From the IMG/VR virus record IMGVR_UViG_3300009151_000185, positions 1 through 36,519 of that record: DNA of 36,519 nucleotides, one strand, 5' to 3'. The position numbers were made by a program, and so were the translations under genes. Every line of letters begins with the position of its first letter. Within the stretch, counting starts at the first letter, position 1. A model generated the notes under the pieces. That model was not told the DNA's origin. It made no database searches and saw nothing but the letters and a program-made list of their open reading frames with translations. The stretch comes from a virus. Positions 30,845 through 32,284 of this stretch are shown here, piece by piece.

Positions 30845-31201
30845 ATGACTATTAAACTTACAGAACATCAAGAACAATCATTACTTATAAAATGGTTCAG
30901 ACTGCAACACAAAGCCTTTGCCAAATGTTTATGGGCAATCCCAAATGGAGGTATGAGAAACATGGGAACGGCTATTAAGTTGAAGCAGGAAGGAGTTATT
31001 GCAGGAGTTCCTGATTTGTTTCTAATGATCCCAAAAAATGGGTGGCATGGTATGTTTATTGAGATGAAAGCCAAAGGTGGTAAATTACAGCCAAACCAAC
31101 AAGAATTTATGGGCATTGCCACATTATTGGGTTACCAATCCGTAGTCTGTTATGGTTTTGAAGATGCAAAAGACCTAATCCAAGAATATTTGCAGAAATA
31201 A
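30845..31201 (+). CDS. VRR-NUC domain nuclease
   Basis: A 118-residue PD-(D/E)XK-type nuclease of the VRR-NUC family. The catalytic pattern is GVPDLFLMIP (Asp about 57) and MFIEMKAKGG (Glu about 73, Lys 75), with LWAIPNGGMRNM before and LQPNQQEF after. Stand-alone VRR-NUC proteins in phages are believed to resolve branched DNA. It is the first rightward early gene and precedes the DnaA-box array. The ribosome site (TTTTAGGTATATAAATG) is modest. Confidence 0.9.
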   Translation: MTIKLTEHQEQSLLIKWFRLQHKAFAKCLWAIPNGGMRNMGTAIKLKQEGVIAGVPDLFLMIPKNGWHGMFIEMKAKGGKLQPNQQEFMGIATLLGYQSVVCYGFEDAKDLIQEYLQK

Positions 31202-31202
31202 G

Positions 31203-31277
31203 TTATGCACAGCCTGTAAGGTTTGGAATAAAAGTTATGCACAATCCATTCACAATTTAATGCACAGCTTATTCACA
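31203..31277 (+). other. DnaA-box array (candidate origin)
   Basis: Three perfect TTATNCACA boxes: TTATGCACA at 31203-31211 and 31235-31243, TTATTCACA at 31269-31277. Two near-matches lie between: CCATTCACA (31246-31254) and TAATGCACA (31258-31266). All have the same orientation. The last four start at 31235, 31246, 31258 and 31269, an 11-12 bp period close to the helical turn, as expected for a filament of host DnaA on one DNA face. Confidence 0.75.
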
Positions 31278-31402: not shown

Positions 31403-31431
31403 TTGCAGAAAATAATTCTATGATTTAAAAT
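31403..31431 (+). promoter_or_regulatory. Promoter of the replication leader RNA
   Basis: TTGCAG (31403-31408), 17-bp spacer, TAAAAT (31426-31431). It predicts a start near 31438-31440, a few bases before the TTGACGG element of the leader RNA. Sits at the end of an AT-rich stretch. Confidence 0.65.
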
Positions 31432-31438
31432 ATTGTTT

Positions 31439-31548
31439 AATCACTTGACGGTGTAAATCTAGTAAGCCTTAATCTACACTCTGCTGGGTACTAGCCCAGT
31501 CCGTCAAAGCCCTTAAAAAAGGTTAGAGTGTAGTTTAAGGCTTTTTTT
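31439..31548 (+). ncRNA. Structured leader RNA / attenuator before the replication initiator
   Basis: Arms 31464-31482 and 31525-31543 pair in 18 of 19 positions and are followed by seven T (31542-31548), forming a strong terminator-like stem. The loop carries a hairpin CTGGG/CCCAG (31484-31499) and a small one CCTT/AAGG (31511-31522). Between them CCGTCAA (31501-31507) is exactly complementary to TTGACGG (31445-31451) upstream, so a pseudoknot or switch is possible. Terminated RNA would be about 110 nt; readthrough gives the replication gene with its ribosome site GGAGCAAAAAGATG. Confidence 0.7.
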
Positions 31549-31561
31549 ATGGAGCAAAAAG

Positions 31562-32284
31562 ATGGAATGGTTTAGACACGATTCAAACGCAAATTTAGAT
31601 GAAAAATTACAAGAAGTATTATTAGATTATGGTTTAGAGGGTTACGGATTATATTGGTATTGTATAGAATTAATCGTAGGTAAAACTTCAGCGGACAACA
31701 TTACATTTGAACTTAAACATGATGCGCGAGTAATTGCACGAAATACAGGTTCAACACCGCAAAAAGTTGAAGAAATGATGAAGCGTTTTATTGCTTTAGG
31801 ATTATTTGAAAATGAAGAAAACAAAATTACCTGTATGAAAGTTGCGAAGCGTTTAATGAGTTCAGCAACTAGCAATCCTAAGATGCGTACTATGATTATG
31901 GACATTAAACAACAGTATGAAACACCAATAGACACTAATCGTCATGACGGCATCATGACGGCATCAGATTTCATCACGGCAGAAGAGAAGAGAATAGAAG
32001 AGAAGAGATTAGATAAGAAAGAAAAGATTATAAAGACTATTGTTTTAGATGATGGGTTTGAAATGTTTTGGAATGTATATCCTAAAAAAGTAGGTAAAGG
32101 ATTAGCATTAAAGACTTGGACTAAATATAAACCACCTATAACTGCTATATTGCTTGCATTACAATGGCAGATAGAAAGTAAACAATGGCGTAAACAAGAT
32201 GGTGATTTTATACCTAACCCCACTACCTACTTGAATCAAGAACGATGGACAGACGAAGCACCAATTGAACAAGCACCATTCTAA
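31562..32284 (+). CDS. Replication initiation protein (DUF4373 N-terminal domain)
   Basis: A 240-residue protein. The first ~115 residues (WFRHDSNANLDEKLQEVLLD, GLEGYGLYWYCIELI) match the DUF4373/Lin1244-type winged domain seen in phage replication initiators. The C-terminal part (about 155-235: FEMFWNVYPKKVGKGLALKT, NPTTYLNQERWTDE) matches the helper domain that follows in DnaT/DnaD-like proteins. It probably binds the phage origin and recruits helicase machinery. Its start is directly behind the leader RNA terminator. Confidence 0.8.
   Translation: MEWFRHDSNANLDEKLQEVLLDYGLEGYGLYWYCIELIVGKTSADNITFELKHDARVIARNTGSTPQKVEEMMKRFIALGLFENEENKITCMKVAKRLMSSATSNPKMRTMIMDIKQQYETPIDTNRHDGIMTASDFITAEEKRIEEKRLDKKEKIIKTIVLDDGFEMFWNVYPKKVGKGLALKTWTKYKPPITAILLALQWQIESKQWRKQDGDFIPNPTTYLNQERWTDEAPIEQAPF

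Follow-up and report, generated by a model that had tools for sequence, protein, structure and literature searches.

A double-pseudoknot leader RNA that ends in a terminator lies before the replication genes of many uncultured aquatic phages and probably acts as their gatekeeper

The window analysed here is a 36.5-kb virus record (IMG/VR IMGVR_UViG_3300009151_000185, positions 1 to 36,519). Its terminase shares 80% identity with the one encoded by Methylophilaceae phage P19250A, which makes a betaproteobacterial methylotroph from water the likely host. A leader RNA is predicted between a VRR-NUC gene and a replication initiator gene of the DUF4373/Lin1244_N type (Table 1). An earlier sequence-only reading of this DNA had described a promoter, a TTGACGG segment, a long stem with CCGTCAA exposed between two hairpins, and a closing run of seven T, and every one of these elements was found in place when the sequence was checked. 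The promoter comprised TTGCAG (31403-31408), a 17 nt spacer and TAAAAT (31426-31431). The 19-position stem (31464-31482 with 31525-31543) was paired at 18 of 19 positions. TTGACGG had been located correctly but is not a free tail; a 5' hairpin, missed by that reading, displays it in its loop, and this hairpin has 3 bp in the window and 5-6 bp in relatives. A second covarying pseudoknot, PK2, had also been overlooked.

Table 1. Features of the leader RNA locus. Positions are those of the window unless a locus handle is given; percentages are cells paired in the family alignment, and two-sided changes are counted by base pair.
Feature	Position	Strand	Evidence and remarks
VRR-NUC gene	30845-31201		Pfam; upstream neighbour of the leader RNA
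Sigma-70-type promoter TTGCAG-N17-TAAAAT	31403..31431	+	Sequence; predicted start near 31438-31440
P1, 5' hairpin, loop holds the 5' half of PK1	31439..31456	+	88% paired; 5/6 pairs with two-sided changes
PK1 5' strand TTGACGG	31445..31451	+	Pairs with 31501-31507; 99.2% paired; 3 pairs with two-sided changes
PK2 5' strand CTAGTA, flush with P2 base	31459..31464	+	Pairs with 31489-31494; 98.1% paired; 4 pairs with two-sided changes
P2 (terminator stem) 5' arm	31465..31482	+	Lower helix 31465-31472, mismatch 31473, upper helix 31474-31482
Invariant unpaired junction G	31483	+	65/65
P3 hairpin	31484..31499	+	31484-31488/31495-31499; 100% paired; 4/4 counted pairs with two-sided changes
PK2 3' strand TACTAG, in P3 loop	31489..31494	+	Pairing and covariation analysis
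Invariant unpaired junction U	31500	+	65/65
PK1 3' strand CCGTCAA	31501..31507	+	Between P3 and P4; pairing and covariation analysis
P4 hairpin, variable length (12-24 nt)	31508..31524	+	98% paired; 4/4 pairs with two-sided changes
P2 3' arm	31525..31542	+	99.1% paired; 13/17 pairs with two-sided changes
U-run (intrinsic terminator)	31542..31548	+	At least 6 T in 8 nt in 65/65
Shine-Dalgarno GGAG	31551..31554	+	Sequence
Start codon ATG of initiator	31562	+	Sequence
Replication initiator (Lin1244_N/DUF4373)	31562..32284	+	Pfam PF14297, E=2.3e-10; PHROG replication initiation protein, E=5.6e-25
Class II leader RNA	L367:4196-4308; L005:694-806; L021:2880-2993; other loci		

The element comprised, from 5' to 3', P1, a linker, the P2 5' arm, an unpaired G, P3, an unpaired U, the PK1 3' strand, P4, the P2 3' arm and the U-run, followed by the Shine-Dalgarno sequence and the start codon. 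PK1 joins the P1 loop to the strand between P3 and P4, and PK2 joins the linker NNAGUA to the P3 loop UACUNN. The short P1 of the window copy pairs only at 31442-31444/31451-31453. The folding energy of the window RNA was 4.3 s.d. below that of dinucleotide shuffles, and none of 200 shuffles equalled it.

A search of IMG/VR for relatives of the initiator returned 69 loci. Several carried a similar leader directly 5' of the gene, with the PK1 strands TTGGCGG/CCGCCAA, TTGGAGG/CCTCCAA or TGGTGG/CCACCA. The family was then collected by DNA pattern scans and a covariance model (R1), whose scores were sharply separated: full-length copies scored 94-122 bits, a deleted copy 76, and two fragments at contig ends 41 and 24. 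The 65 distinct members came from viral contigs and one bacterial genome bin, and were aligned (alignment A2) with a mean pairwise identity of 66% and a minimum of 39%. By this comparison, positions 31439-31548 of the window are one member of a predicted structured RNA class, here called class I, that is absent from Rfam 15. The deleted copy (L129:3658-3760) lacks 12 nt of the P2 5' arm, which probably breaks its terminator; it still lies directly 5' of an initiator-like start (MAERRMFAKTI).

Standard pairs filled 97.4% of the 2732 pair cells in the alignment of 64 distinct relatives. Two-sided changes numbered 552, compared with 131 in shuffles, and were seen in 33 of 43 pairs; many pairs showed three to five pair types. 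The covariation score was 0.567 against 0.144 for shuffled alignments (0 of 500 shuffles as high) and at most 0.078 with partners slid, both controls being ones that ignore kinship. PK1 and PK2 alone were 98.7% paired, with a covariation of 0.320 against 0.079. The check named by the sequence-only reading was covariation of the stem and of the 7-nt TTGACGG/CCGTCAA pair in relatives, and both proved conserved and strongly covarying. As the first member filters had demanded PK1 complementarity, PK1 was rechecked on pattern scans blind to its 3' strand. It was kept in all 51 genuine members of these scans (49 exactly, two with one G-U) and is therefore no product of the filters; the six other matches were unrelated sequence.

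The geometry of P2 was fixed. Both arms were 18 nt long with zero indels in 65/65 members, all eight pairs of the lower helix were formed in 65/65, and the mismatch position was a non-pair in 53/65, mostly A.C or U.U. P4 and the linker between P1 and PK2, unlike the P2 arms, varied in length. Invariant nucleotides lay nearly all in PK1, PK2 and the junction, with G31483 and U31500 as the only unpaired ones, and the pseudoknot halves were constrained in sequence (UUGG/CCAA and AGUA/UACU). PK1 (6 bp), P3 (4-5 bp) and PK2 (5-6 bp) together approximate the length of P2 (18); from this hand estimate we infer a side-by-side bundle in which the pseudoknots would set the length of P2. A view of PK2 and full P2 as sterically exclusive was withdrawn, since the helix lengths match by the same estimate and coexistence is possible. 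Coexistence would account for arms of constant length. No nucleotide is shared between the pseudoknots and P2, and arms fixed at 18 nt suggest that both may sit in one predicted fold, the alternation between two folds offered by the sequence-only reading being perhaps less likely.

Class I was looked for outside these loci. Two class I RNAs used as blastn queries matched nothing among cultured phages, and the sole above-chance match of the window RNA region was to the initiator gene of a Vibrio phage. No genuine member was present among the matches listed from a pattern scan of genome contigs. With about ten candidates scored per genome, which limits sensitivity, the covariance model found class I in 0/369 and 0/385 genomes of class- or order-level samples and in 1/399 of a Burkholderiales-order sample; the class II model described below gave 0/399. 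In the Burkholderiales-order genome bin, the class I RNA lay 5' of a DUF1376-like gene.

In 31 of the 51 non-redundant members, 10-13 nt separated the end of the best -10 hexamer from the PK1 loop, so transcription is predicted to start at the base of P1. Scores of at least 8/12 for a promoter were reached by 92% of the upstream regions of these 51 members and by 28% of shuffles. The claim that the RNA is promoter-led holds in that a similarly spaced promoter recurs across the family; the window copy itself is a weak match to consensus (8/12), under the threshold of a generic promoter scan. At the 3' end, a stable G+C-containing stem is followed by a U-run, as in an intrinsic terminator. In most members, some 9-11 nt separate the U-run from the start codon. 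No separate promoter fits into a gap of about 10 nt, so that initiator expression would need readthrough, and this short gap is the strongest argument from the sequence for readthrough-dependent expression. Promoter, structured terminator leader and gene, with no promoter between, form the layout of an attenuator.

The first or second downstream gene fell into the initiator cluster (single-linkage) in 47 of the 57 members with callable genes (~80%). The position before a replication initiator, as had been read from the window, therefore extends to several initiator families across members: by PHROGs the downstream genes include replication initiation proteins, O-like proteins, primosomal proteins and DnaD-like helicase loaders, and by Pfam they carry DUF4373 and DUF1376. 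In the remaining members the RNA is followed by other genes, such as ParB-like, HNH or helicase genes. At two loci (L009, L018) a gene of ~380 aa lies between the RNA and the initiator; by eye it is ATPase- and acetyltransferase-like, which is unusual for a phage replication operon.

Some related phages (P19250A; L002/L058) have no such RNA and keep promoter-like sequence with a Shine-Dalgarno sequence shortly after it; the RNA is therefore regarded as an insertable control cassette. At other loci the same site, between promoter and Shine-Dalgarno sequence and before the same kinds of gene, holds a different leader, here called class II. Its 5' hairpin has the loop GGNCAAG, whose 7 nt pair with the terminator hairpin loop in the covarying variants GGACAAG/CTTGTCC, GGTCAAG/CTTGACC and GGGAAAG/CTTTCCC. 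The two classes share the logic of a 5' hairpin loop that pairs with a loop inside the terminator, but have no detectable sequence similarity and differ in secondary structure. They were never found together in one locus among the loci searched with both models. A class I locus (L167) and a class II locus (L367) were 98% identical over the 51 nt upstream and 97% identical over the 250 nt downstream, and their RNAs were no closer to each other than shuffles (local score 20; shuffled mean 18.9, maximum 31). Near-identical flanks around unrelated RNAs indicate that the two replace each other, and by this comparison two unrelated RNAs of one predicted design swap between promoter and Shine-Dalgarno sequence. 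In class II, a GAUGCC segment can pair with an upstream or a downstream GGUAUC and could form a switch of its own.

Repeated motifs were seen on both sides of the leader. Three DnaA-box-like TTATNCACA sites lie on the same strand at 31203-31277 (within 75 nt), upstream of the promoter; two others occur in the whole window. Inside the initiator gene, three copies of TCATGACGGCA/TCATCACGGCA at 31942-31981 have an iteron-like arrangement, comparable to the origin that lambda has in its gene O. The DUF1376 gene of P19250A contains AACGGGCGTT repeats. At least three close repeats were counted in 19 of 55 segments following the RNA and in 1 of 48 later segments. The repeat clusters weakly suggest an origin inside the initiator gene.

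We propose that the 5' leader of this phage replication operon is a promoter-proximal conditional terminator (attenuator), in which formation of the knot biases readthrough, and assign this reading a probability of roughly 0.6. The sequence-only reading had already called the element an attenuator RNA and is supported overall. The double-pseudoknot fold, the terminator, the promoter position and the site before replication genes are backed by comparison of relatives; that readthrough would be the regulated step, that folding order would act as the switch and the direction in which it would work are what we infer from them. The RNA would start at the base of P1. As it emerges, PK1 would form between the P1 loop UUGRCGG and the CCGYCAA that separates P3 from P4, and PK2 between the NNAGUA linker and the loop of P3, and both would hold the 18-nt P2 5' arm stretched along the scaffold. 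The P2 3' arm would be synthesised last. Where it zips onto the 5' arm, RNA polymerase would stop at the U-run and release an RNA of ~110 nt. Where the knot has closed first, full winding of P2 (~1.6 turns) would be hindered, because the polymerase on the 3' end could not thread through a closed ring, and transcription would read into the initiator gene. Formation of the stem first would give termination, and the knot might then clamp the terminator. In both classes a 5'-proximal loop would thus be tied to the terminator interior. Initiator synthesis would be controlled in consequence and, should the initiator gene contain an origin as it does in lambda, so might transcription across the origin.

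The pseudoknots and P2 use different nucleotides, so there is no classical antiterminator, and the proposed switch depends on the topology argument. We put forward only tentatively that it is a new kind of switch, in which two pseudoknots ring one terminator strand so that folding order (topology), not competing base pairs, decides termination, and in which phages exchange two unrelated RNAs of this kind as cassettes before the replication operon. Further points speak against the attenuator. With G31483 and U31500 as the only unpaired invariants, a pocket for a ligand is not obvious; rigid arms of 18 nt suggest a final RNA in which all helices are present together, which would equally hold for a stable small RNA; and some members precede non-initiator genes (ParB-like, HNH, helicase).

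The terminated RNA of ~110 nt might instead be a stable small RNA that acts in trans, its target being RNA or a protein of the host or else a superinfecting relative, as known from RNA-based phage immunity, with initiator mRNA made by passive readthrough. A separate promoter and terminator would yield such a discrete RNA, its compact fold of rigid geometry would suit a stable one, and the allelic swap with class II resembles swapping of specificity modules. A described precedent is IsrK of prophage Gifsy-1, a single locus that can produce a small RNA by termination and an mRNA by readthrough (PMC4825925). We nevertheless regard this as unlikely. A start codon ~10 nt downstream, seen in members with a called gene, is needless for a free small RNA, and an immunity specificity would not be expected to show the low variation of PK1, whose loop is tied up in cis. 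The scanned right-arm genes of the window phage included no integrase, so this phage may not lysogenise. A strict riboswitch, whose conserved core would bind a small molecule or ion signalling the state of the host and so set termination before replication, appears improbable. Sequence-constrained pseudoknot halves and an invariant G and U at the junction do surround an expression platform, and riboswitches are present in a marine methylophage genome (PMC9004378). A conserved core and a terminator are thus present, but almost all invariant nucleotides are paired, so that a binding pocket is not evident; the associated genes point to a replication operon and not to a metabolite pathway, and no Rfam riboswitch was matched.

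Two further explanations carry very little weight. In the manner of the put element of phage HK022, the folded nascent RNA could bind RNA polymerase and make it resistant to downstream terminators. RNA modules are indeed exchanged after the same promoter here, but the terminator is built into the element and the hairpins are enclosed by the terminator stem and two pseudoknots, unlike the two-hairpin put layout. Scattering of several copies per phage, as for put, was ruled out by the single copy in all 46 positive phage records, and we hold this explanation very improbable. Phage DNA synthesis might also be started by the RNA, acting as a replication primer or as an origin RNA. It adjoins the initiator gene, the three DnaA-box-like sites lie ~160-240 nt upstream of P1, and some initiator genes contain repeat clusters. 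Primer function is not favoured, and its chance is slighter still: the RNA also precedes non-initiator genes, the DnaA-box cluster is outside the RNA, on its upstream side, and is known from the window only, related phages dispense with the RNA altogether, and coupling to promoter and Shine-Dalgarno sequence suits the control of expression. The attenuator is thus retained as the preferred reading. On comparative evidence, many uncultured water-borne phages carry a knotted, terminator-ended RNA between a promoter and a gene for the start of replication, where it is probably a gatekeeper of replication. A recurrent and strongly conserved double-pseudoknot class before their replication genes would offer a direct test of terminator control by pseudoknot topology, and the natural exchange of two unrelated RNAs at the same promoter and gene provides a ready-made experiment on phage replication control.

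Several known systems resemble parts of this arrangement. The ZTP, fluoride, preQ1 and SAM-II riboswitch classes have a pseudoknotted core and an intrinsic terminator, and are likewise leader RNAs in which the conserved core is coupled to that terminator; class I matches none of these families, and its pseudoknots enclose the terminator stem itself. The immunity RNAs of satellite phage P4 and of P1 (CI, C4) form a leader before replication genes, where premature termination controls replication; in P4 a processed RNA pairs with sites in the leader. The position before replication genes is similar, but the class I pairs covary within one molecule, and the C4 antisense RNA family of Rfam did not match class I. 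The put RNA of HK022 lies just after the early promoters, takes the place of the lambda N/nut system, occurs in more than one copy and has no built-in terminator. Class I resembles it as a structured RNA directly after a phage promoter that is exchanged as a module, and is set apart by layout, with a single copy per record and the terminator within the fold. Identity with put was rejected on anatomy, since class I has a terminator and two pseudoknots in place of a two-hairpin, terminator-free form. A type III toxin-antitoxin RNA (ToxI type) was also rejected: the RNA is a single unit with no tandem repeats, and the downstream genes encode replication proteins.

That no RNA class of this layout had been described was borne out by the searches. 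Rfam 15 (cmscan at the gathering cut-off) gave no match in the window or in ten loci carrying class I or II, the best sub-threshold matches at permissive thresholds were at chance level, and the full text of open-access papers held no description of such a phage leader. The nearest described logic is that of IsrK, which has its own promoter and terminator and some of whose transcripts read through into mRNA (PMC4825925), as proposed here. IsrK differs in that its known role is to trans-activate its own readthrough mRNA and in that its abstract describes no double pseudoknot (PMC4825925); the window RNA matched no Rfam family. Judged by these sources, the RNA class is new and the attenuating leader is a known kind of control; the topological mechanism would, if shown, be new.
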